Shown in pieces: positions 527 through 11,998 of a stretch of 12,395 nucleotides of DNA. Numbering within the stretch: the stretch's first letter is position 1; each line of letters begins with the position of its first letter. The notes below the pieces were generated by a model. It was not told the DNA's origin. It did no database searches and worked only from the letters and a program-made list of their open reading frames with translations. Location: assembly GCA_029265085.1 (NCBI GenBank), contig JAJUJY010000129.1, positions 1-12,395 on the forward strand, read 5' to 3'. A program made the translations under genes and the position numbers. This stretch comes from Chloroflexota bacterium. GTDB lineage: Bacteria > Chloroflexota > Anaerolineae > Anaerolineales > Anaerolineaceae.

Positions 527-3523
527 TTATTTTCCGTGAATTGACCGCCAGACCCGTTCAGGTGTGGCAGGATTCACAGTCAATTTCGCACCGCAAGCAT
601 CATAAATTGCATTTGCCACCGCAGGCGCTACTCCATCCATCGGAATTTCTGCAACTGCTTTTACACCAAAAGGATGAGTTGGTTCGTATGTTTGGATAAA
701 AATGGTTTGCAATTGAGGCATTTCATCTGCGCGGAAAATGTGATAATCTACAAAATCTTTTTCACGTGCCTGACCTTTTTCATCATACACCATTTCTTCA
801 CAAACCGCATATCCCAATGCCTGTGTCATCCCGCCCTCAATTTGACCAGAAGCCGTAATCGGGTTAACGATCACGCCGGAATCAACAGCCATGATTAATT
901 GATCGACTACGACAACACCGGTTTCGATGTCCACTGTAACTTCTGCAAATTGGGCAGCAAAAGGAGGCGGCGAAGATTGTGAATAATACGACCCAATACC
1001 CATGATTTGTTCTTGATCGTTGTGATGCAATGCATCGAGGGCAATTGCTGATAATGAAATTTGTTGTCCATTTTGTGCAACAGCCATTCGATCAACCAGG
1101 ATAATTTCTTCAACCGAAGAATTTAACATTCGTGCAGCACGAATTCGAATTCTTTCTGCGGCTTGCTCAGTAGCTTTAACAACCGCTGCGCCAGAGATAT
1201 AGGTCGTACTGGAAGCATAAGCGCCCTTATCAAATGGTGTAAAATCCGTATCGGAAGAATAAACCAATATATCTTCTACTGGTACACCAAGAATCTCGGC
1301 AGCCATTTGTGCAAGAACAGTATCTGATCCCGTGCCCAGGTCAGTAGCCCCTACCATTAAATTAAACGATCCATCATCATTCATTTTGATGGTAGCCCCG
1401 CCCATATCCAGATATGGTATTGCTGTCCCCTGCATCACTGTTGCAATACCAATACCTTTACGGAGATGTGGTTTACCAGGCACTTGATGCCATTCCTGAT
1501 TACCAAATTTTTGATCCCAACCAATCGCAGCCTTACCCTGGATTACGCATTCCTCCAAGCCAACCGTATGGATGATTTCAGGGCGTGGTTCTCGTCCTTC
1601 GCTCCAAGCGGTGCTAAAGGGATGCAATTCGCCAGACCGAATCGCATTCTTTAATCGGAATGTAATTGGATCCAACCCGAGTTCCCTGGCGATATTTTCC
1701 ATTTGCCGTTCAACTGCCCAATACCCTTGGGGAACGCCATACCCTCGATATGCGCCTGAAGGAGGTGTGTTGGTGTAAACAACATCAGCATAAAAACGGA
1801 TATTGGGTGATTTGCGGTACTTACCATCACCCACATAAAGCGCCATAGCTTTGTGACCTGTATTTCCAGTAACAGTTAGTGCATGACAACCGTAAGCACC
1901 CGTATCACTCAGCGCATACATTTCGTTCGCTGTAATCGTTCCGTCTAATTTAACCCCAGTTTTTAATTTTATTTTCATTGGGTGGCGTGACCGAGAAGCG
2001 ATAAACTCTTCCTCTCGATCATATTCATAAATGACTGGCTTTCCGGTAGCGATTGTTAGGTGACCAGCAACATCCTCAATTAGCACTTCTTGCTTGCCGC
2101 CAAATCCGCCACCGACTCGTGGTTTAATTACTCGGATTCGTTTCACCGGCAGATTTAATACTGGAGCAAGCATTCTGCGAACATGGAATGGAACCTGAGT
2201 GCTTGTCCGTATAACCAATCGATCGTCTTCATCCCAATAGGTTACAACAACATGCGGCTCGATATGTGCCTGTTGAACTTTTGGAACTTCATATTCTGCC
2301 TCAAAAATCCGATCTGCTTCCTCAAACCCTTTCTCAATATCTCCAATATCAATTCGGATTTCAGCTGCCAGGTTTTTTAACGGATTCGAATCCGCAAAAT
2401 TTTTATATTCTGGCTCATCATGAATCTGAATTGCACCTGCCTTCATAGATTCAGTTGAATCCAATATTGCTGGAAGGATTTCATATTCAACCTCAATTAG
2501 CTTCAACGCTTTTTCAGCAATTTCAGCTGTTTCGGCTGCAACAAAAGCAACTCGATCACCGACAAAACGGACTTTTTTATCTAGAGAAAATGCATCTAAC
2601 GGTCCAGGAATTGGATCAGACTGCCCTGCCGTAGAATAGACAACGCGAGGCAAATCTTTCCATGTAAGCACAGCCGCAACTCCAGGAAGGGACTTCGCTT
2701 TGCTAACATCAATTGATTTAATACGAGCGTGAGCTACAGGACTGTGCAAAACCTTAGCGACCAGCATATCACGTCGTTCAAAATCAGCCGCAAAAGCAGG
2801 TTTACCTTGTACTAGCTTAACTGCATCAACTTTTGGTTCGGGTTTTCCTATTTGTTTCAATACTTGCGGCTGTTCTGCTGCTACTGTAAGTACTTTTGGC
2901 ATCAAATCGACCTGAGTGCCAGCCAAATGAGAACCATGATCGGTCTGAGGAACGGGAGTTTCGGGTAGGTCAGGTTTCTTCGACCAATCCAATCCCATCC
3001 TAATCGCATCATCCCCCCCAACAGGTGGAACTATTTCTCCACGCATAACTGCTGCAGCCCGCATAATCGCCTGAACTGGCTTTAAGTATCCCGTGCACCG
3101 GCATAATACACCCGAAATAGCCTCTCGCACTTCAGCTTCTGTTGGATTAGGATTTTTTTCTAATAAGGCCTTCGCAGCAAGAATAAAAGCAGGCGTACAA
3201 TAACCGCACTGAATTGCGCCGCTTTCAACAAAAGCCTGCTGAAGCTGATGTAATCCCCTGGTTTTCTTCCAGCCCTGTTCAGGATGTTCGCCAATTCCTT
3301 CAATTGTTATAATCTCATGCCCATCAGCTTGTGCCGCTAGCATTGCGCATGAATTTACAGGGTTGCCATCAAGAAGTACTGTGCAGGCACCACATTCGCC
3401 GTGTTTGCAGCCGCCAAATTTCACACTGAAAATTCCGCGCTGCCGAAGCACATCCAACAACGTATCATTTGGGAGGACTTCCCAATTGTAAGCAACACCA
3501 TTTAATTTAATATGAATTTCCAT
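527..3523 (-). CDS. xdhD: XdhD-type molybdenum hydroxylase, fused [2Fe-2S] and molybdopterin-binding subunit
   Basis: A 998-residue xanthine oxidase-family enzyme that hydroxylates a carbon of an N-heterocycle or aldehyde using water. Residues 1-80 form a plant-type ferredoxin domain with cluster ligands C39, C44, C47 and C59. Residues 85-160 form the second [2Fe-2S] domain with C106, C109, C141 and C143. A linker (about 161-225) leads to the Moco domains: a/b hammerhead near 235-350, GGGFGGK at 471-477, PSGAYRGYGVPQG at 588-600, DLGTGSDT at 728-735 and FDKGAYASS at 764-772. E959 in AVAEI matches the catalytic Glu position. Order and motifs resemble E. coli XdhD (956 aa) more than heterotrimeric CoxLMS. 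FAD is supplied by the separate upstream gene. The start is fixed by GAGG six bases before the ATG. The substrate cannot be read from sequence; a purine or related heterocycle is likely from family and from SsnA. Whether it carries labile selenium is unknown. Confidence 0.93.
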   Translation of the reverse strand: MEIHIKLNGVAYNWEVLPNDTLLDVLRQRGIFSVKFGGCKHGECGACTVLLDGNPVNSCAMLAAQADGHEIITIEGIGEHPEQGWKKTRGLHQLQQAFVESGAIQCGYCTPAFILAAKALLEKNPNPTEAEVREAISGVLCRCTGYLKPVQAIMRAAAVMRGEIVPPVGGDDAIRMGLDWSKKPDLPETPVPQTDHGSHLAGTQVDLMPKVLTVAAEQPQVLKQIGKPEPKVDAVKLVQGKPAFAADFERRDMLVAKVLHSPVAHARIKSIDVSKAKSLPGVAAVLTWKDLPRVVYSTAGQSDPIPGPLDAFSLDKKVRFVGDRVAFVAAETAEIAEKALKLIEVEYEILPAILDSTESMKAGAIQIHDEPEYKNFADSNPLKNLAAEIRIDIGDIEKGFEEADRIFEAEYEVPKVQQAHIEPHVVVTYWDEDDRLVIRTSTQVPFHVRRMLAPVLNLPVKRIRVIKPRVGGGFGGKQEVLIEDVAGHLTIATGKPVIYEYDREEEFIASRSRHPMKIKLKTGVKLDGTITANEMYALSDTGAYGCHALTVTGNTGHKAMALYVGDGKYRKSPNIRFYADVVYTNTPPSGAYRGYGVPQGYWAVERQMENIARELGLDPITFRLKNAIRSGELHPFSTAWSEGREPRPEIIHTVGLEECVIQGKAAIGWDQKFGNQEWHQVPGKPHLRKGIGIATVMQGTAIPYLDMGGATIKMNDDGSFNLMVGATDLGTGSDTVLAQMAAEILGVPVEDILVYSSDTDFTPFDKGAYASSTTYISGAAVVKATEQAAERIRIRAARMLNSSVEEIILVDRMAVAQNGQQISLSAIALDALHHNDQEQIMGIGSYYSQSSPPPFAAQFAEVTVDIETGVVVVDQLIMAVDSGVIVNPITASGQIEGGMTQALGYAVCEEMVYDEKGQAREKDFVDYHIFRADEMPQLQTIFIQTYEPTHPFGVKAVAEIPMDGVAPAVANAIYDACGAKLTVNPATPERVWRSIHGK

Positions 3524-3552
3524 TGACCACCTCGTCTACTTATGCACAATGA

Positions 3553-4302
3553 TTACGCGGAATTCAGCATGCGTCGAAGTAAGCGGCTCGCAGCATCCTG
3601 GCGATATTCTGCGCTTGCCCAGGCATCCCCAGAGTTTGAGAGTGAATTTAATACTGCAAACTCTGCACCTTCAGCATTCGGACCATCAAATGCCAATATA
3701 GGATTTTTTCCAAATCCTCCTAAAGCGATGCGCGTTCTGCCAGAATTCCACCGTGCAATGGCGACAATTAGCTGAGATCGATCACCAGGAGTTCGGGCAA
3801 TATATTCCATTGATAACGTTAAATTTGTCTTGATTAAAATTTCACTAATTAGAAAGCTATATTCAGTAGGATTTCGTAAGGATAAATATTCGCCCACACT
3901 TTGCTGCTTACCTGAAGGGCTCCATACCAGCAAAGCATCCATAGATACTAATGCCGCAACCAGAGGTGATTTCCCATCAGAAGCTACAATGGAACCAGCA
4001 ATGGTCGATTGTTGGCGTAAATTAAAATTAGTTTCCTTGCGAACAGCTTCATAAAAATCAATTGGAAAACCTGGTATTTCCAGTAGGTTTTGAAGGGTAT
4101 TGACTGCACCAACATGAAATCCATCACGATCTGTTGAGACCGTACTTAATCCTAGCGACTGAAGATCTACAACAGCAATATCCTCCCCATCCCAATGACT
4201 AATTTTTGTTCCCCCACCTAATGGGATTGATTTTTGGGAGTTGTTTGATAATAATCTAATTGCCTCATCCATTGATTTAGGACGGTGATACTGGGTTATC
4301 AT
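3553..4302 (-). CDS. FAD-binding subunit of molybdenum hydroxylase (YgfM/CoxM family)
   Basis: A 249-residue FAD subunit that would pass electrons from the [2Fe-2S] clusters of the adjacent molybdenum enzyme to an acceptor. The N-terminal FAD_binding_5 domain opens with a typical YHRPKSMDEAIRLL and has the flavin pyrophosphate loop IPLGGGTKIS at residues 26-35. A second FAD motif, QQSTIAGSIVASDGKSPL, is at 97-114 and continues into a VSMDALLVW strand. The C-terminal part (about 160-249) fits the CO dehydrogenase flavoprotein C-terminal domain, with the RIALGGFGKNP stretch at 191-201. It is shorter than usual CoxM proteins (roughly 280-290 residues) and close to E. coli YgfM (259), which also pairs with XdhD. 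It sits 29 bases upstream of the fused subunit and 7 bases after the thioesterase gene, whose last codons (GAGGAGTGA) provide its Shine-Dalgarno sequence. This suggests translational coupling. Confidence 0.9.
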   Translation of the reverse strand: MITQYHRPKSMDEAIRLLSNNSQKSIPLGGGTKISHWDGEDIAVVDLQSLGLSTVSTDRDGFHVGAVNTLQNLLEIPGFPIDFYEAVRKETNFNLRQQSTIAGSIVASDGKSPLVAALVSMDALLVWSPSGKQQSVGEYLSLRNPTEYSFLISEILIKTNLTLSMEYIARTPGDRSQLIVAIARWNSGRTRIALGGFGKNPILAFDGPNAEGAEFAVLNSLSNSGDAWASAEYRQDAASRLLRRMLNSA

Positions 4303-4782: not shown

Positions 4783-5778
4783 CTAGTGAGCAAACGTATC
4801 AATCAAAAGTTTAACATCTCCGCCAACCGGATAAAGAATTGGGCAGGTGCATCCAGTCTTTTGATACTCAGCTACTTTTGCCCTGGCTTCATCGGGTGTC
4901 CCTGATGCAGTAATCCTATGAATTAATTCTTCTGGTACAAGATGTTTTGCTTTTTGTATTTGCGAGTGGGTAGCAGGCCAACCCAAAATAGATTGAATTT
5001 CAGCAACTACATCGGGTGAAACACCAGACGCTTTAGCAATATGTGGTTGTTGAGCAAGATATTGAGTGAGCAAACCGCGGGTAGTATCAATCGCCTTATC
5101 ATGATCATGATCCACAGAGCACACAATCAATTGTGGTCGATCAATATCTTCAAAACGGAGGCCGGCTTTCTTGGCACCATTATCTAATAATTCAAGTGCC
5201 TTATAGTTATATTCTGGTGGAACACAATAATTTAATACAGCTCCATCGGCAATTTCACCGGTTAATTCCATCATTTGATCGCCTGTAGCGCCAATCATTA
5301 TGGGAACATTTCGGGGTTCTTTTCTTCCATGCACAACATCTAATTCAATCCCATTGACATGGATGAATTCACCTTCAAATGACACCCTTTCCATATTCAA
5401 CAGGCGTTTTAATATCGTAACAGTTTCACGCATTGCGGTTAATGGTTTTCGGCGATCAATGCCAACATTTTTTGCAAGGGGATCCCACCATGCGCCAATC
5501 CCGCAAATTACCCGGTTAGGTGCTAGGTCATCTAACGTAAGAAATGTCGAGGCAAGCAAGCCAATATTTCGGGTCCAATTGTTAATCACACCAGACCCAA
5601 CCTTAAGACGATCGGTCACAGCCGCATAAGCAGCCATTGGTACGATCGCATCCCGCACTAATCGGCTTTCAGCCTGCCAGACAGCTTCAAAGCCTTTTGA
5701 TTCAGCGTACCGCACATAATCTAGACCATCGCGTAAATCATGAGCGTCCTGCAAATAAAGTGCCATTCGGTTTGTCAT
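4783..5778 (-). CDS. Luciferase-like (LLM class) oxidoreductase, probably F420-dependent
   Basis: A 331-residue TIM-barrel protein of the bacterial luciferase/Mer superfamily. Visible family features are [18 protein letters not shown] near residues 21-38, the [16 protein letters not shown] segment at 57-71, and the characteristic [10 protein letters not shown] at 94-102, ending in the usual [11 protein letters not shown] helix (117-127). [21 protein letters not shown] at about 159-179 is the second hallmark. F420-using members include methylene-tetrahydromethanopterin reductase and F420-dependent dehydrogenases, while others use FMN. Location directly after cofC, cofD and cofE favours F420, by inference. 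The start at 5778 is supported by GGAGG six bases upstream; an internal Met at residue 5 is the alternative. The substrate is not identifiable. One possibility is an oxidoreductase step on the heterocycle handled by the neighbouring molybdenum hydroxylase and SsnA. Confidence 0.88.
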
Positions 5779-5822: not shown

Positions 5823-6431
5823 TTAGATTTGAACAGATTCAATTTGTTTGAGAATTTCTAAATCTTCTGGTAAATCCAGATCCAGGCCAAATGTAGAAAT
5901 CTGGCAGACTTCAATCCGATACCCTTTTTTTTCCGCCTGTGAGGTATGGTGTTTAAAAGACCCAACCCCAAAACGATAATCGAAATCACCGGCTGGACTG
6001 ATATACAAAGCATTCGTACCGTCCATCCTGCGGTCTGGTGCAATCACCATTACAGGAGGTTTTTCAGCTCGTTTAATCAATTCCTGAATGTCACGTGGGG
6101 TGACAAGTGGTAAATCAGCCGGCAATACCAGGATATCTTCTGCTGCATACATTTTTGCAACAACAGTCGCACGCCGTAATGCTGTATTTAACCCTGGCCT
6201 ACCATCTTCTTGAACAGTTCTTGATCCATATTCTCTTGCCAATGACAATGCTGCTGGATCTCTACTTACCACCAACACCTGATTGATTTCTGTTACTTGT
6301 GTTAATGTTCTTAGTGTATTCCCTAACATCGTGTAGTTCAATACAGCTCTTTCATCTTCAGTTAGTACACCAGATAATCGCGACTTCCCCCTACGAAGAG
6401 GTTTGACCGGTACAATCGCCCATAGGCTCAT
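5823..6431 (-). CDS. cofC: CofC, phospholactate/phosphoenolpyruvate guanylyltransferase
   Basis: A 202-residue nucleotidyltransferase of F420 biosynthesis. It activates a three-carbon phosphate (2-phospho-L-lactate in archaea, phosphoenolpyruvate or 3-phosphoglycerate in some bacteria) with GTP, making the donor used by CofD. The N-terminal nucleotide loop VPVKPLRRGKSRLS is at residues 7-20, VLPADLPLV at 102-110 includes the metal-binding Asp, GTNALYI is at 138-144, FGVGSFKHH at 154-162, and GLDLDLPEDLE at 182-192 closes the fold. Length is normal for stand-alone CofC. The ribosome binding site AGGAGGG overlaps the cofD stop, 11 bases before the ATG. Together with cofD and cofE it makes a contiguous F420 block. 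The sequence does not tell which three-carbon acid is used. Confidence 0.94.
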   Translation of the reverse strand: MSLWAIVPVKPLRRGKSRLSGVLTEDERAVLNYTMLGNTLRTLTQVTEINQVLVVSRDPAALSLAREYGSRTVQEDGRPGLNTALRRATVVAKMYAAEDILVLPADLPLVTPRDIQELIKRAEKPPVMVIAPDRRMDGTNALYISPAGDFDYRFGVGSFKHHTSQAEKKGYRIEVCQISTFGLDLDLPEDLEILKQIESVQI

Positions 6432-6447
6432 TCGGTGTGATTCCCTC

Positions 6448-7392
6448 CTAAAACAATTGGTTCACTAAATCAAGCACTTCTAATGCAAGACGTTTTCGAT
6501 CATGTTTGTCTTTCATAATCGAATTTGTCGTCGAAGTTATTATACCCCAGCGGTTGATCTCGTCAGCATATCCTTCATCAACATTATCCATCACAAAACC
6601 ATTCAAAATACCTCGAAAATGGTCTGCAACCGCTAATGGTGTCGGTGATAATCCTAATTCCAAAAACATTTTTGCTGCAGGCCCCTTGACCGTCTTTCCG
6701 CCAATAATCGGTGATATCGCTATCACTTTTTTCGTAGAGATCAATTCGCGTATTCTTGGAACTGAAAGTATCGGATCAATACTCACAAATGGATTAGAAG
6801 GACAAAGGATAACTGCCTCACACTCAAAGAGTGCTTCTTCAATTTCTGGGGTTAATGTTGCTTTTTCAATTCCTTCGAACAAAAACCGATTCACACACGG
6901 AACACACGATTCTTTGACAAAGTATTCCTGAAATTCGAGCATTCTCCCATCACTGGTAATCACCTTGGTGCTGACAGCTTCGTCACACATAGGGAAAACG
7001 GAATATTCAATATGCCAGGCCGAGCAAAGTCCTTTTATCACCTGAGTCAGGCGAATACCATCCATTAATTTACTTGTTCGAAATAAATGAGTAGCAAGGT
7101 CGCGGTCACCTAGACGAAACCAGGGAGCCTCACCCATTCGCGTCAACTCGTCTAAAACTTGAAAAGTTTCTGCATTTCGCCCCCACCCGGTTTCTGGGTT
7201 TGCCAGATCAGCCAACGTGTAGCATACCGTATCAAGATCCGGACAAATTTTCAATCCGTAATGAGTAAAATCATCGCCCGTATTAGCGATGATTTTTAGC
7301 GAATCGGGGGGCAGGCATTGCGCCAAGCCATCCACCATTTTTGCTCCACCCACGCCACCTGCAAGCGCAACAATTTTCATCACTTTGGGCAT
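6448..7392 (-). CDS. cofD: CofD, 2-phospho-L-lactate (or EPPG) transferase
   Basis: A 314-residue enzyme that transfers the phospholactyl or enolpyruvyl phosphate group from the GDP-activated donor to FO, giving F420-0 or dehydro-F420-0. Family motifs are complete: IVALAGGVGGAKM at residues 7-19, ANTGDDFTHYGLKICPDLDT at 36-55, GWGRNAETF at 69-77, LGDRDLATHLFRT at 94-106, CPSNPFVSIDPIL at 197-209 and SPIIGGKTVKGPAAKM at 227-242. The start is uncertain. For the ATG at 7392 the upstream AAGGA is only about 3 bases away; for the ATG at 7380, which gives the canonical MKIVALAGG N-terminus, it is about 15 bases away. The stop of cofE lies 9 bases before 7392. The 7392 start was kept, but the protein may begin four codons later. 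Confidence 0.95.
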   Translation of the reverse strand: MPKVMKIVALAGGVGGAKMVDGLAQCLPPDSLKIIANTGDDFTHYGLKICPDLDTVCYTLADLANPETGWGRNAETFQVLDELTRMGEAPWFRLGDRDLATHLFRTSKLMDGIRLTQVIKGLCSAWHIEYSVFPMCDEAVSTKVITSDGRMLEFQEYFVKESCVPCVNRFLFEGIEKATLTPEIEEALFECEAVILCPSNPFVSIDPILSVPRIRELISTKKVIAISPIIGGKTVKGPAAKMFLELGLSPTPLAVADHFRGILNGFVMDNVDEGYADEINRWGIITSTTNSIMKDKHDRKRLALEVLDLVNQLF

Positions 7393-7401
7393 ACGTCCTT
7401 A

Positions 7402-8172
7402 TTACCGAAACAAATCCAATTCATCTGGGCGTTTTAATTCCGAAAAACTACCTTCGCGTAATGAATAAGGAAACCCTCGTACATGAACGGCTGGAATTCG
7501 CTCAGCAGCCTGGCCCATCATCAAAGATGCACCAGCAGCTAGTTCATCTGACGCCGCTACGATCGTTACGCGCAGCTGATATCCATAAAGATCTTCTTGT
7601 CCGCGCATATCCACAATTCCTGGTAAACCAGAAATCCCGATTGCCACACCAACCGTTCCAACACGCCAGGCGCGCCCGTGAGAATCAATAATCATAACTC
7701 CGATCTTTTTGCCGGTTAAGCTTTCCAAATCCTCTCTGATTTTTTGACAACTCGCATCAGGATCTTTGGGCAGCAATAAAACCCAATCTTCCGGTTTTCC
7801 GCCCAATGACTGAACGTTTGAATGATCAATCCCTGCATTTGCACAAACAAATCCCAATTTGTGCTCTACAATCAAAGTGCCTGGGCGGGTTCGAAGAACT
7901 TTCTTGCTTTCAGACAACACCAGCTCAACAAAACGGGGATCTTTTTCAGTTTTGTTTGCGATATCGACCGCGTATTGACCTGGAACAATTGTATTGAGAT
8001 CAACAAACCGGCCTTCCGCTTTGGAGACGATTTTTTGAGCGATAACAATCACATCCCCGTCTTCAAGCATAATCGCATTTTCAGATAACGCAATTGTCAG
8101 GAGACTCGAAACTGAATCTCCTGGATTTACCAAGGGCATCCCAGAAATCGGTGTAATAGTTAATGATTTCAT
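7402..8172 (-). CDS. cofE: CofE, coenzyme F420-0:L-glutamate ligase
   Basis: A 256-residue GTP-dependent ligase that adds gamma-linked glutamates to F420-0. Conserved blocks are VIVIAQKIVSKAEGR at residues 41-55, KDPRFVELVLSESK at 77-90, FVCANAGIDHSNV at 108-120, LLLPKDPDASCQKIREDL at 132-149, VMIIDSHGRAWRVG at 159-172 and EDLYGYQLRVTIVAASDELA at 193-212, followed by SLMMGQAAERIPAVHV. It is the single-domain archaeal-type form. The second nitroreductase-like domain of actinobacterial FbiB is absent, so a dehydro-F420-0 reductase, if needed, must come from elsewhere. Its start codon overlaps the npdG stop (ATGA), a sign of translational coupling. The number of glutamates added cannot be predicted. 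Confidence 0.95.
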   Translation of the reverse strand: MKSLTITPISGMPLVNPGDSVSSLLTIALSENAIMLEDGDVIVIAQKIVSKAEGRFVDLNTIVPGQYAVDIANKTEKDPRFVELVLSESKKVLRTRPGTLIVEHKLGFVCANAGIDHSNVQSLGGKPEDWVLLLPKDPDASCQKIREDLESLTGKKIGVMIIDSHGRAWRVGTVGVAIGISGLPGIVDMRGQEDLYGYQLRVTIVAASDELAAGASLMMGQAAERIPAVHVRGFPYSLREGSFSELKRPDELDLFR

Positions 8173-8849
8173 TCAGTTGGAATACCAGTAATCCGAATTC
8201 CAGCTGACTGAATGTTAAATTGCTTGTTCAAGCCAATCAATATCGATGTCATTCCCTCAACAACAACTGAATTTTCAATTGGACCTGCATTCCATCCGGT
8301 TAATCCAGCATCTTTAACCAATGAAATTACTTTCTCGCGGGCTTCTTTATTCCCTCCACAAACCAAAACATCACAGTTCACATCTTCATCATGGATAAGG
8401 TGTTCATATGAAATGTTTTGGAAAGCAGCAACCACTTGGACACCTTCGCCTAACATTTTTTGAGCCTCTTGGGTTGCACTTCCATCTGCCGGCATTTGAA
8501 CCTTGGTTACTTTTGGCGGCACCAAAGGTACTGTAACATCAATTACAATTTTTCCTTCTACAAAAGGTTTAATGAATGCGCACATATCTTTATGAGCAGA
8601 GAAAGGCACTGTAAGTACTACCAGTTCACTTTTTTCTGCCACATCTTCATTAACTGATCCCTGCACCTGGTCAGGAGAACCCAGTAATTCATTTACTTCG
8701 TTTGCGGCAGCCAATGCTTTTTCTACCTGGCGCGACCCGATCATAACGAAATGTCCGGCTTTTGCCCATCGATAGGCCAAGCCTTTCCCTTCTTTCCCTG
8801 TTCCGCCAATAATACCAATACGCATTGGTGATATAGAACCACCCACCAT
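8169..8849 (-). CDS. npdG: NpdG, F420H2:NADP+ oxidoreductase
   Basis: A 226-residue soluble enzyme that moves hydride between reduced F420 and NADP+. The Rossmann domain starts RIGIIGGTGKEGKGLAYRWA (residues 10-29), with the NADP phosphate-binding SR at 39-40 in the VMIGSR motif. LVVLTVPFSAHKD at 77-88 and KIVIDVTVPLVPP at 100-112 are typical of the family. The C-terminal NAGPIENSVVVEGMTSILI (187-205) and GIRITGIP (217-224) match the FNO/NpdG pattern. The strong ribosome binding site GGAGG six bases before ATG 8849 supports this start, which adds eight residues before the usual MRIGIIGGTG. The gene lies 35 bases after ssnA and overlaps cofE by 4 bases. It links the F420 pool to NADPH and is the clearest F420 user in the operon. 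Confidence 0.93.
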   Translation of the reverse strand: MVGGSISPMRIGIIGGTGKEGKGLAYRWAKAGHFVMIGSRQVEKALAAANEVNELLGSPDQVQGSVNEDVAEKSELVVLTVPFSAHKDMCAFIKPFVEGKIVIDVTVPLVPPKVTKVQMPADGSATQEAQKMLGEGVQVVAAFQNISYEHLIHDEDVNCDVLVCGGNKEAREKVISLVKDAGLTGWNAGPIENSVVVEGMTSILIGLNKQFNIQSAGIRITGIPTE

Positions 8850-8884: not shown

Positions 8885-10234
8885 TTATGCAAATTGATTT
8901 TGATATCGCTGCCAAACCGCTGGAACCAATTTTCTGGCCTCAAATGCAATTTTCTCTTCATCGAGAAAAACCAATTCGCGATTATTCATCAATATTTTTC
9001 CGCCAACAATAGTTGTTGTAATCATACTTTCATGAAATCCGAAGATTATTTGCCAGGGTAAATTCCCTTCGGTTAGCGGGGTATATGGATGATAATCAAC
9101 AAAGATTAAATCCGCCTGCGCGCCTTGGCTAATTACACCAATTGGACCTGCCTCAAAATGCTCAGAGACTAATGCGGCATTGTTGTAGATTGCCATCTTG
9201 ACAACATCCGTACCAGACATTTTTCGTGGATCCAAATTCCATAACTTATGAGCGAGGTAAGCAGCTTTCCATTCTTCCCACATCGCATTTGAGAAGCCAT
9301 CATTACCCAGGCAGACCCTCACCCCAGCGCGCATCATTGATTCTGGAATAGACATTCCAACCGCATTGTTCATATTGGAACGTGGCTGGTGAGTTACCCA
9401 GGTATTCGTTTCAGCCAATAAGTTAATTTCATGGGTATCGACATGAACCGCATGTACCACGATAGATTTAGGTCCTAAAATACCATGCCGGTACAAACGA
9501 TCCACAACTCTTTCACCATATTTATGCAGGCTATCATATTCATCGACTGGATGCTCGGCTACATGAATGTGAAAGCCCACGTCTTCCGGCACAGCAGCAC
9601 GGCAGGCGGCCAATGTCTTTTCAGAAAGGGTTAAGCCAGCATGCAAACCAAATGTTGCGGCCAATCTGCCGTTTAATTGCTTGCTTCGCTTAATTCCATT
9701 GATAAAGCGAACATTTTCTCGAATTCCTGCCTGGGCTTTTTCGTCTCCATCTCGGTCTGTAACTTCGTAACACAAAGAAACCCGTAAACCGCTTTCTTCA
9801 ACAGCCTGTGCAATAACATCTAAAGATCCATCTATCGCATTGGGTGAGGCATGGTGATCAATTAAACTGGTAGTACCATGTCGAACAGCATTTACCAAAC
9901 AAACCAATGCAGAGTATTTCACATCCTCTAACGAAAGAGCTTTATCAAGAGACCACCATAATTTACTCAAGATTTCAGGAAAATCTGCCGGAGCTGCCCC
10001 AGGGATTGCTAATCCGCGAGCGAAAGCTCCATAAAAATGCGTATGCGCACAAATATTTCCCGGTAAAACATATTGCCCTTTTGCGTCCAGGGTTTCTTCG
10101 CCAATATATCGTTCTGTCAACGCATTGGAAGGTCCGAGATCATCTATCTTTCCATCTTTGATATAAATCGCATAATTCTCCAGGATGCGATTGGGAGATT
10201 CCCAGGTGACCAATTTAGCATTCTTTATAAGCAT
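8885..10234 (-). CDS. ssnA: SsnA-type amidohydrolase (putative aminohydrolase of TRZ/ATZ family)
   Basis: A 449-residue metal-dependent hydrolase of the amidohydrolase superfamily, first gene of the leftward operon. Metal ligands expected in the family are present: HTH at residues 64-66, HIHVAE at 222-227, H261 in VVHAVH and D312 in LGNDG. It has SsnA-type signatures beyond the general family: LWWSLDKAL at 92-100, SLIDHHASP at 123-131, RSNMNNAVG at 285-293 and EEWKAAYLAHK at 320-330. Length agrees with E. coli SsnA (442). SsnA occurs with YgfM and XdhD, as here, and is presumed to deaminate or hydrolyse an N-heterocycle, but its substrate is not established. The start at 10234 follows GGAGG by 7 bases. 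S-adenosylhomocysteine/methylthioadenosine deaminase would be the generic alternative name, but the motif matches and neighbours favour SsnA. Confidence 0.92.
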   Translation of the reverse strand: MLIKNAKLVTWESPNRILENYAIYIKDGKIDDLGPSNALTERYIGEETLDAKGQYVLPGNICAHTHFYGAFARGLAIPGAAPADFPEILSKLWWSLDKALSLEDVKYSALVCLVNAVRHGTTSLIDHHASPNAIDGSLDVIAQAVEESGLRVSLCYEVTDRDGDEKAQAGIRENVRFINGIKRSKQLNGRLAATFGLHAGLTLSEKTLAACRAAVPEDVGFHIHVAEHPVDEYDSLHKYGERVVDRLYRHGILGPKSIVVHAVHVDTHEINLLAETNTWVTHQPRSNMNNAVGMSIPESMMRAGVRVCLGNDGFSNAMWEEWKAAYLAHKLWNLDPRKMSGTDVVKMAIYNNAALVSEHFEAGPIGVISQGAQADLIFVDYHPYTPLTEGNLPWQIIFGFHESMITTTIVGGKILMNNRELVFLDEEKIAFEARKLVPAVWQRYQNQFA

Positions 10235-10269
10235 ACCGTTGCCTCCGGATATTATTTAAGACAACAACA

Positions 10270-10289
10270 CCGAAAGGAATCCCTTTCGG
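10270..10289 (-). terminator. Hairpin in the ssnA leader, possible attenuator or weak intrinsic terminator
   Basis: A perfect 8 base-pair stem (CCGAAAGG/CCTTTCGG) closes a 4-base loop. In the minus-strand transcript it is followed by UGUUGUUGUCUU, a U-rich but interrupted tract, about 20 bases before the GGAGG site. This could be a conditional terminator of a regulatory RNA, or only a stabilising stem. Read on the plus strand there is no T-tract after it, so it would act, if at all, on the ssnA operon. Confidence 0.4.
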
Positions 10290-10369
10290 CGAACTAAAAT
10301 ACTCACTGCATAAGAGAGTAAACTATCAAGCAATTTTTGGTTAAAAGTGAAAGATGATAGGATAACATA

Positions 10370-10457
10370 GGATCGGTGGCTGAGGATTTGGCGGCACTTT
10401 TCGACGGGTTTCTTTCCCGACGCCAGCTCAAGGATTCCTTGGGCTGACCACCGAACC
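10370..10457 (-). ncRNA. Candidate cis-regulatory RNA (three-way junction) of unknown class
   Basis: The closing stem P1 pairs 10370-10379 with 10448-10457 (nine pairs, one mismatch). Inside, one arm pairs 10426-10433 with 10437-10444 (eight pairs including one G-U, 3-base loop). The other arm pairs 10389-10393 with 10421-10425 and continues over an asymmetric internal loop to 10405-10408 with 10416-10419 (7-base loop, AAAGAAA in the transcript). The junction strand AAUCCUCAG is unpaired. In the minus-strand transcript the structure begins about six bases after the inferred transcription start. It does not match the TPP, SAM, cobalamin, FMN, purine, glycine or tRNA-like patterns I know, and I could not match it to the Moco RNA consensus from memory. 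Orientation on the minus strand is inferred from the promoter; the same stems could form in a plus-strand RNA. Confidence 0.5.
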
Positions 10458-10469
10458 TTGTATAAAAAT

Positions 10470-10498
10470 ATTTTAGCACATTCTAAATAGTTTGTTAA
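10470..10498 (-). promoter_or_regulatory. Sigma-70-type promoter with extended -10 for the ssnA operon
   Basis: Read on the minus strand, the -35 box is TTAACA (10498-10493). After exactly 17 bases comes the -10 box TAAAAT (10475-10470), directly preceded by TGC (10478-10476), which makes an extended -10. The predicted start is near 10463. It is the best promoter-like match in the intergenic region and points toward ssnA. Confidence 0.7.
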
Positions 10499-10519
10499 TC
10501 AATTCTCGCTGAATTTTTA

Positions 10520-10536
10520 TAATTGTATGACAATTA
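10520..10536. promoter_or_regulatory. Inverted repeat, possible regulator operator between divergent genes
   Basis: TAATTGT-ATG-ACAATTA is a perfect 7-base inverted repeat with a 3-base centre. It lies between the divergent promoters: about 57-73 bases upstream of the inferred ssnA start, and just upstream of a possible plus-strand -10 (TATACT, 10540-10545). The size and symmetry fit a dimeric regulator site, but the surrounding AT-rich sequence makes a chance palindrome possible. No regulator gene is in the window. Confidence 0.35.
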
Positions 10537-10584
10537 AATTATACTTGTAGGTAAACGAATCTACCTCTCGAAATCAATTTGAAA

Positions 10585-10590
10585 TATAAT
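10585..10590 (+). promoter_or_regulatory. Possible -10 element for the M20 dipeptidase gene
   Basis: A perfect TATAAT would give a start near 10597. That leaves the ATG at 10622 with a short leader containing its ribosome binding site, and excludes the ATG at 10601. No convincing -35 box is seen 16-18 bases upstream. A second candidate, TATACT at 10540-10545 with a poor TTATAA -35 (10517-10522), would also serve and would give a leader with a small AGGTA/TACCT hairpin (10549-10566). Confidence 0.4.
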
Positions 10591-10604
10591 CAACTCATTC
10601 ATGG

Positions 10605-10612
10605 AAAAGGAG
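10605..10612 (+). promoter_or_regulatory. Ribosome binding site that decides the M20 dipeptidase start
   Basis: AAAAGGAG lies 9 bases before the ATG at 10622. The longer reading frame that begins at 10601 would have this site inside its coding region and has no ribosome binding site of its own, so the shorter start is preferred. Confidence 0.75.
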
Positions 10613-10621
10613 TGGATATCA

Positions 10622-11998
10622 ATGATTAATCGTGACCAGGCAATCAACTATGCTCATATAAACCATGAGCATTTCCTGGAAAGTTTAAAGTCCCTCGTTC
10701 GAATACCATCTGTATCAACCGACACAGAACATAAACAAGATATGGTGCTCACCGCAGAATGGCTTGCAGACGCATTAAATGGCATTAATTGCGCAAATGT
10801 TCAAATACTTCCCACAGGAGGTCATCCTGTAGTTTATGCTGAAAAATTAGACGCAGGTCCAGATAAGCCGACCGTCTTGATCTATGGTCATTACGATGTT
10901 CAACCACCTGCTCCATTAGATTTATGGAACACCGACCCATTTTCACCGGATCAGCGGGGGAAAAATCTTTTTGGCCGCGGTGCATCCGATATGAAAGGTC
11001 AGATTGTTGCCAGCATCAAGGCTGTTGAATCAGTCCTAAAAACGACTGGTTTACCCCTCAATGTGAAATTTATATTTGAAGGTGAAGAAGAAATTGGGTC
11101 GCCAAACCTTCCTGCATGGCTTAAAGAGCACACAGAATTACTTAAATGTGATGTCGCTTTAAATCCTGATGCCGGAATGATTAATAGCTCGCTCCCCACG
11201 ATCACTTATGGCCTCCGTGGATTGGCATATTATGAAATCCGTCTATATGGGCCTGACCATGATTTGCATTCTGGCTTGTTCGGTGGGGTCGTGCATAACC
11301 CCGCCCAGGTAATTTGTGATTTGATCGCTGGCATGCACGACAAAGAAGGCCGAGTAACACTTCCTGGCTATTATGATAAAGTTCGGCCTTTAGATGATGA
11401 TGAGAGAAAAGCGCTCGCTCGACTGCCCATTGGAGATGATTTTTACCTGAAACAAACAGGTGCTCCTGCCTTGTGGGGTGAAACAGGCTATACAGCAGCG
11501 GAAAGGACGGGAGGTCGTCCTACATTAGAGGTCAATGGGATTTACTCTGGTTTTACCGGAACCGGCTCAAAAACTGTCATACCAGCTTGGGCTATGGCAA
11601 AAATTTCGATGCGGCTTGTTCCAGATCAAGATCCTAATGAAGTCCAACAACAATTGTCTGATTACTTATCTCAAAATGCTCCAAATACCGTTCGGTGGGA
11701 ATTGATTCCACACGCTGGTGGTTTTGCATCGATTTCTGATCGTTATCATCCCGCTACAATTGCTATGCATAAATCGATGGAGAAAGTTTGGGGCGTTGAA
11801 CCAGTTTACAAACGAGAAGGGGGAAGTGTACCGATTGTTGGTGAGATGCAAAAAATCTTAGGCGTAGAATCAGTACTAACCGGTTTTAGCCTACCCGAAG
11901 ATAACGTACACTCGCCCAACGAAAAATTACACCTCCCGACCTGGTATCGAGGAATCGACTCGTTAATTCACTTCCTTTACGAATACGCTGAAAGTTAA
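10622..11998 (+). CDS. M20-family metallodipeptidase
   Basis: With the start at 10622 the protein has 458 residues. It is a two-zinc M20 peptidase of the cytosolic dipeptidase/carnosinase-like type. Expected metal and catalytic residues are H90 in IYGHYDVQP, bridging D123 in GRGASDMKG, the base/ligand pair E157-E158 in EGEEEIGS, D183 in NPDAGM and H430 in PEDNVHSPNEKL. The lid/dimerisation domain (about 195-310) has HDLHSGLFGG with H216, normally contributed across the dimer. No signal peptide is seen, so it is cytoplasmic. It probably hydrolyses dipeptides or related amide compounds; substrate is unknown. It is transcribed divergently from the ssnA operon and 8 bases ahead of the DUF1385 gene. 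M20 proteins (YgeY) also occur near ssnA in E. coli, but this one looks more like general dipeptidases, so a functional link is uncertain. Confidence 0.92.
   Translation: MINRDQAINYAHINHEHFLESLKSLVRIPSVSTDTEHKQDMVLTAEWLADALNGINCANVQILPTGGHPVVYAEKLDAGPDKPTVLIYGHYDVQPPAPLDLWNTDPFSPDQRGKNLFGRGASDMKGQIVASIKAVESVLKTTGLPLNVKFIFEGEEEIGSPNLPAWLKEHTELLKCDVALNPDAGMINSSLPTITYGLRGLAYYEIRLYGPDHDLHSGLFGGVVHNPAQVICDLIAGMHDKEGRVTLPGYYDKVRPLDDDERKALARLPIGDDFYLKQTGAPALWGETGYTAAERTGGRPTLEVNGIYSGFTGTGSKTVIPAWAMAKISMRLVPDQDPNEVQQQLSDYLSQNAPNTVRWELIPHAGGFASISDRYHPATIAMHKSMEKVWGVEPVYKREGGSVPIVGEMQKILGVESVLTGFSLPEDNVHSPNEKLHLPTWYRGIDSLIHFLYEYAES

Follow-up and report, generated by a model that had tools for sequence, protein, structure and literature searches.

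The window, that is, the whole stretch of 12,395 nt analysed here, holds a minus-strand operon in which ssnA is followed by F420 genes, an LLM-class oxidoreductase and the two subunits of a molybdenum hydroxylase, whose best NCBIfam matches are of the XDH type and below cut-off (Table 1). The leader of this operon contains an RNA that an initial annotation of the DNA had described as an unassigned, aptamer-like three-way junction at the 5' end of the ssnA transcript. This description has held up: the RNA has covarying homologues in many genomes and matches no Rfam family. The annotation had also seen a hairpin with a U-rich tail between the RNA and ssnA, which is indeed there, terminator-like and with a weak tail.

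Table 1. Features of the window, with the evidence for each.
Feature	Position	Strand	Evidence or remark
Promoter-like site, TTAACA, 17 nt, extended -10 TG.TAAAAT	10470..10498	minus	predicted start at about 10463
Three-way-junction core, conserved	10390..10457	minus	covariance-model match, 78.7 bits with model R1 (the window itself is among the 22 training rows)
P1 5' strand GGUGG, with two alternative partners	10448..10452	minus	covariation, partner exchange
Arm P2	10425..10445	minus	two-sided changes at 8/8 pairs
Arm P3, with a U/U mismatch	10402..10422	minus	covariation
Junction strand AAAAGUG	10395..10401	minus	conservation of 76-100% per position in 62 members
P1 3' strand CCGCC (inner P1)	10390..10394	minus	covariation
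Linker AAAUCCUCAG, variable	10380..10389	minus	neither sequence nor length conserved
Anti-P1 strand CCACCGAUCC, competes for GGUGG	10370..10379	minus	pairing and energy comparison
21-codon open frame, starting at an AUG 3' of anti-P1	10303..10368	minus	
Terminator-like hairpin, weak U-rich tail	10268..10291	minus	probability 0.99 in both forced states
ssnA, first gene 3' of the RNA	8885..10234	minus	NCBIfam NF005540 and TIGR03314, above cut-off
F420 genes npdG, cofE, cofD, cofC	5823..8849	minus	TIGR01915, TIGR01916, TIGR01819, TIGR03552, above cut-off
LLM-class (Mer-like) oxidoreductase	4783..5778	minus	resembles F420-dependent families, all below cut-off
Molybdenum hydroxylase, FAD subunit (3553-4302) and Mo/Fe-S subunit (527-3523)	527..4302	minus	

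A promoter-like site with an extended -10 box, another element of the initial annotation, lies in front of the RNA as well. A promoter scan of the window alone is at chance level (2 sites found versus 1.3 expected, both strands); across the homologues described below, a TA(A/T/G)(A/G)AT box lies at the same place, at most 35 nt 5' of P1, in 71 of 101 copies, compared with 8, 8 and 1 of 101 in control windows farther upstream. The leader RNA folds with -36.4 kcal/mol, as against a mean of -24.2 kcal/mol for shuffled sequences (z -3.66; 1 of 200 shuffles at least as stable).

Homologues and their spread

Homologues were sought through SsnA, which led to 80 loci titled Chloroflexota (one of them Herpetosiphon). 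A BLAST search with the RNA, followed by a motif search, located the same RNA either directly 5' of ssnA or kilobases upstream, where it heads the operon that contains ssnA. Twenty-two MAFFT-aligned members were built into a first covariance model, R1, which at E<=1e-3 matches 29 of the 80 loci in addition to the window; 21 of these 29 are training members, and the weakest match (L003, 26.6 bits) is doubtful. Two copies with long loops (L009, L058) and a diverged one (L021), which were omitted from this model, were later recovered by it. The diverged copy (L021, 3349-3417) lies shortly 3' of what appears by eye to be the 3' end of a tRNA gene. All 29 genomes behind the matched loci contain the RNA, six of them in two copies.

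With R1 and a second model of 65 members, R2, we extended the search within Chloroflexota. R1 detects the RNA in 38 of 396 genomes from the class to which genome G011 belongs, and R2 in 21 of 400 genomes from the phylum and in 142 of 301 from the order, the last sample including training genomes. Among the carriers are the cultured species Levilinea saccharolytica (L015), Longilinea arvoryzae (L056) and Anaerolinea thermolimosa (L046). Since G011 holds the Levilinea saccharolytica locus L015, the sampled groups should be, by NCBI lineage, Anaerolineae, Chloroflexota and Anaerolineales, respectively. Nineteen of the 21 phylum matches recur in the class or order samples. The remaining two, in genomes G728 and G745 (29.5 bits), were treated as false; the one that was examined for neighbouring genes (L209) has none of the genes sought. 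Removal of copies identical in the core plus 60 nt reduced 127 aligned matches to 102 non-redundant copies. For the gene context, these represent a subset of the class, phylum and order matches, with the order sample represented for the most part by low-scoring matches and second copies, along with some others.

Conserved core and covariation

The core consists, in this order, of the P1 5' strand, an unpaired UC, P2, an unpaired GG, P3 with its U/U mismatch, the junction strand AAAAGUG and the P1 3' strand. All three helices covary in three alignments, among them P2 and P3, the two inner arms that had been proposed for this RNA. In the first alignment, that of the 22 MAFFT-aligned leaders, 91.2% of the cells can pair and 11 of 19 pairs show two-sided changes, a result reached in 0 of 500 shuffles. 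Larger alignments of 65 and 62 members raise this to 16 of 19 pairs each (0 of 500 shuffles in the former; 7 of 500 on that single measure in the latter), with covariation scores of 0.507 and 0.536, respectively, versus 0.203 and 0.199 for shuffled and at most 0.103 for slid alignments. These two alignments overlap in their members and favour the structure because they are fitted to the model, and the controls ignore relatedness. Covariation in homologous leaders, which had been suggested as a check, is accordingly found. Per position, the unpaired junction bases are conserved among the 62 members to 98-100% (UC), 97-100% (GG) and 76-100% (AAAAGUG), while the hairpin loops vary. The RNA therefore has what is expected of a riboswitch at the structural level, an aptamer-like domain with covarying helices.

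A search of the window against Rfam 15, likewise proposed for the leader, gave zero matches at gathering score, and the same holds for 20 related loci. At E values up to 10, the interval 10200-10700 gave just two matches, with E 1.2 and 6.7, both to snoRNA models and both to the plus strand, which we rejected. Among the papers listed in literature searches, no title or displayed abstract names this RNA; the literature covered leaves out most subscription journals and all preprints. That the RNA is a conserved structured element of a new family is, in our view, practically certain, and the family is apparently undescribed.

Genes behind the RNA

Nearly all copies precede a limited set of genes. 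Within a tally restricted to 16 query proteins, the nearest same-strand gene of the 102 copies is a FAD subunit gene in 57 cases, ssnA in 22, a Mo subunit gene in 13, an ABC permease gene in 6, a NUDIX gene in 2 and a PTP-like gene in 1; one copy has none. The RNA thus lies 5' of FAD, Mo, ssnA, BMP-type ABC, NUDIX or PTP-like genes on the same strand in 101 of 102 copies. Likewise, 72 of the 73 copies found blindly, by the model alone, precede such genes (41 FAD, 13 Mo, 10 ssnA, 6 ABC, 1 NUDIX, 1 PTP-like). The gene starts within 250 nt of the RNA in 98 of 101 copies and is never on the opposite strand; the start lies 1206-3376 nt off in three ABC copies, with other frames in between. Anywhere downstream, ssnA is found in 45 and ABC genes in 10 of the 102 copies, many of the stretches being short. 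A position in the 5' leaders of functionally related genes, the other hallmark of a riboswitch, is therefore evident. Where a contig holds two copies, these can head different operons: L182 (1725-1795 and 6995-7060) and L186 (3112-3182 and 9789-9860) each carry a pair 5-7 kb apart, of which one heads an ABC operon and the other FAD or Mo subunit genes.

Several of these genes point to purines. The Mo subunit encoded at L199 passes the NCBIfam cut-off for selenium-dependent XDH (TIGR03311), and YgfK, encoded at L203, passes its own (TIGR03315, 1019.7 bits). On the other side, the two hydroxylase subunits encoded in the window (Mo and FAD) fall below the XDH cut-offs, so that purines are putative substrates here, and for the ABC proteins the nearest NCBIfam name, that of a 'putative B6' transporter, lies far below its cut-off. 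Representatives of the ABC operons encode BPD_transp_2, Bmp (PnrA-like) and ABC_tran proteins; the Bmp protein resembles the PDB entries of an atrazine-binding protein, a basic membrane lipoprotein and tmpC. The tmpC/PnrA protein binds purine nucleosides. At L199 (4114-6693, minus strand), the RNA is followed by the TIGR03311-passing gene and then by BMP-type ABC genes. At L203 (543-7102), in a genome of the order sample, the operon consists of the RNA, the Mo subunit, ssnA and YgfK.

According to a published study, SsnA and YgfK convert 2,8-dioxopurine, Chloroflexota lack YgfK, and their ssnA clusters include an F420-dependent luciferase-family protein (PMC12507026). The YgfK of L203 contrasts with this statement on Chloroflexota. 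The LLM-class protein of the window matches the luciferase-family protein of that account and is possibly an F420-dependent 2,8-dioxopurine reductase, as the same study proposes for Chloroflexota (PMC12507026).

The gene context also bears on the ligands that the initial annotation had offered as guesses, namely Moco, a purine or F420. A purine-like compound fits best. An F420-sensing riboswitch might seem natural given the F420 genes in the window's operon and in 36 of the 74 copies whose downstream sequence was read for 6 kb or more; npdG, cofE and cofD are, however, all absent from what was read behind the other 38 of 74, including 5 of 5 copies in which ABC genes come first. We therefore rejected F420 as the ligand and give this explanation next to no weight. 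In 70 of 102 copies, on the other hand, the RNA precedes a molybdenum-hydroxylase gene (FAD or Mo subunit), as would be expected of a riboswitch that senses the molybdenum cofactor, or the cytosine-dinucleotide form of this cofactor, and exerts general control over Mo enzymes, and a MocA-like gene after ssnA in 4 copies would fit such a cofactor signal too. Yet MocA, the Moco-related gene among the queries, is the nearest sought gene in 0 of 102 copies, and 22 copies head ssnA. Moco is a weaker candidate than a purine-like ligand because the RNA also heads BMP-type ABC importer operons (6 copies). Known Moco RNAs are linked to molybdenum enzymes, as is the RNA described here; they are larger and differently built, and their Rfam model matches neither the window nor the 20 related loci. 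Altogether, we consider a cofactor riboswitch unlikely.

Two partners for one strand

The initial annotation had closed the junction with a nine-pair stem, GGUUCGGUGG/CCACCGAUCC. This turned out to be an alternative pairing, since homologues close the junction with the strand directly after AAAAGUG. In the conserved P1, GGUGG (10452-10448) pairs with CCGCC (10394-10390); the outer strand CCACCGAUCC (10379-10370), referred to here as anti-P1, is the alternative partner of the same GGUGG. In distant members, the 3' strand follows AAAAGUG immediately and the stem is longer, as in L131, where CGAUCAAUGG pairs with CCAUUGAUCC; in several members without the outer strand, the inner P1 extends in the same way. 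Members of the window's type close the junction with GGUGG/CCGCC and have the outer strand as an additional partner. Strictly defined, anti-P1 is present in 38 of 102 copies; the inner P1 goes on for at least 4 of the next 5 pairs in 22 of the 64 copies without anti-P1, as opposed to 5 of the 38 with it. For the core plus anti-P1 of the window, the inner form is predicted at -30.0 and the outer form at -34.5 kcal/mol.

The unpaired strand AAUCCUCAG, proposed earlier as one of the features that give the RNA its aptamer-like look, does not qualify as a conserved binding strand and was rejected as such. The stretch that holds it is a variable linker, which differs in sequence and ranges in length from 4 to about 60 nt among homologues; the conserved unpaired bases are instead UC, GG and AAAAGUG. 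Part of AAUCCUCAG does pair with the 5' flank of P1 in one of the inner states predicted for the window.

In many leaders of FAD subunit genes, anti-P1 adjoins the start codon; among the FAD-type members, L225 has a clear anti-P1. Among the 56 copies with a locatable FAD start, the 24 nt before the start codon pair with the P1 5' strand over a mean longest run of 6.70, compared with 5.16 for shuffled sequences and a maximum of 5.55 among 200 shuffled means, and 25 of 56 leaders contain a run of at least 7, versus 6.8 expected; the shuffles permuted single bases and left relatedness in. Over the 75 nt downstream, with dinucleotide shuffles, just 25 of 102 copies reach p<=0.05, which indicates that the anti-P1 platform is not universal. 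An SD-like motif lies at most 14 nt before the candidate strand in 18 of 80 copies, the 80 being those of the 102 that were evaluated under a loose criterion, many without a real anti-P1.

At 32 loci, the inner P1 costs a mean of 4.6 kcal/mol to force and the alternative 1.0 kcal/mol, both compared with the free ensemble. With the inner P1 forced, the start region is more open at 29 of 32 loci (0.57 versus 0.40) and less open at 3, a comparison whose outcome is in part predetermined, as the alternative pairs fall inside the scored region. As the inner form is the costlier one and has the more open start region, stabilisation of the junction by a ligand should turn on translation.

Conserved junction bases would suit a regulatory protein too, and the three-way junction could in principle be a protein site in the leader. 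The conservation resides, however, in the junction strands around a closing stem with a competing partner, as in metabolite aptamers, and the RNA occurs in one to two copies per genome, in front of different operons. A protein site strikes us as improbable, and we hold with good confidence that the RNA is a riboswitch instead.

The ssnA leader of the window

In the window, 135 nt separate the end of anti-P1 from the start of ssnA, and the terminator-like hairpin lies between them. An AUG is found just 3' of anti-P1 in 11 of 13 ssnA-type leaders examined (of 22). Since the frame at this AUG reads MIPWNKTYFP in L006, resembling the starts of FAD subunits, the sequences suggest that the FAD gene has been replaced by ssnA in leaders of the window's type, and the 21-codon frame is probably a relic of the lost FAD-subunit start. 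A translated leader peptide was considered for this stretch and rejected: the differences among three close relatives, counted at codon positions 1/2/3, are 7/3/4, 6/7/4 and 9/10/7 and reveal no constraint on coding.

The output in the window may run via the hairpin, which is a candidate route. Antitermination by UUCGGUG/CGCCGAA or CACCGA/UCGGUG, two pairings spotted by eye, was set aside, as runs of this length are common in shuffled similar stretches and the hairpin stays at 0.99 whichever state is forced. Across the family, 8 of 102 copies have a hairpin with a T-rich tail no more than 200 nt away, in one case inside a coding region; the clearest is that of L168, with 11 pairs. Two leaders of the Longilinea type (L026, 7890-7956; L056, 7888-7956) have no outer strand, and their CCGCC continues into CCUCC near the ssnA start, which by eye might form pairs with the ribosome-binding site of ssnA as an alternative.

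Comparison with known purine riboswitches

Given the gene context, the RNA might be a diverged member of a known purine family, either of the guanine-type three-stem junctions, including xanthine-II, or of xanthine-I (NMT1). Xanthine-II, a variant of the guanine riboswitch, has a three-stem junction like that seen here and accompanies genes for xanthine dehydrogenase, dioxygenase and allantoinase, a similar context (PMC9295807). The guanine-type family including xanthine-II has, however, kissing P2/P3 loops, and none were detected here: complementary runs between the two loops average 2.34 versus 2.10 in shuffled sequences and reach at least 4 in 6 of 62 members. The Rfam library contains models for the guanine-type and Moco RNAs; the guanine-type/xanthine-II model matches neither the window nor the 20 related loci. 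The junction bases of the guanine family also differ from those of this RNA.

Xanthine-I likewise occurs in a purine-oxidation context, with translation control expected from a sequestered start region, and its discoverers noted that they saw no oxidised-purine degradation genes under the class (PMC7373994). By the same account, it has two stems with a divided P2, in contrast to the three covarying helices here, and it is an OFF switch confined to Proteobacteria, unlike the inferred ON switch of Chloroflexota (PMC7373994). Descent from either family thus appears very improbable. Our best reading is that the RNA works like a purine riboswitch; membership in xanthine-I or xanthine-II is unsupported because each fails a tested defining feature.

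Proposed function

We favour the view that the RNA represents a cis-regulatory class of Anaerolineae, namely a riboswitch for an oxidised purine on which the controlled enzymes act (xanthine, urate or 2,8-dioxopurine, the last an intermediate characterised only recently); the gene context makes a ligand of this kind reasonably probable. The ligand would bind the junction and stabilise the inner P1, GGUGG/CCGCC. This would free anti-P1 (CCACC...), which would otherwise be paired to the same GGUGG, and in the leaders of FAD subunit genes its release would turn translation ON, as anti-P1 directly precedes the start codon in many of them. On balance, we expect such ON control by P1 strand exchange to operate before the FAD genes.

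If this is correct, the RNA would constitute a new aptamer fold and probably a new riboswitch class. The chances seem about even that it adds a third architecture to the natural RNAs for oxidised purines and serves as an ON switch in purine oxidation, in the reductive breakdown of urate and in the uptake of purines. With one P1 strand common to the aptamer partner and the start-codon partner, its mechanism could be tested by a few point mutations. Furthermore, it would give access to the control of purine and urate breakdown in anaerobes, among them the F420-dependent variant that the study cited above proposes for Chloroflexota (PMC12507026).
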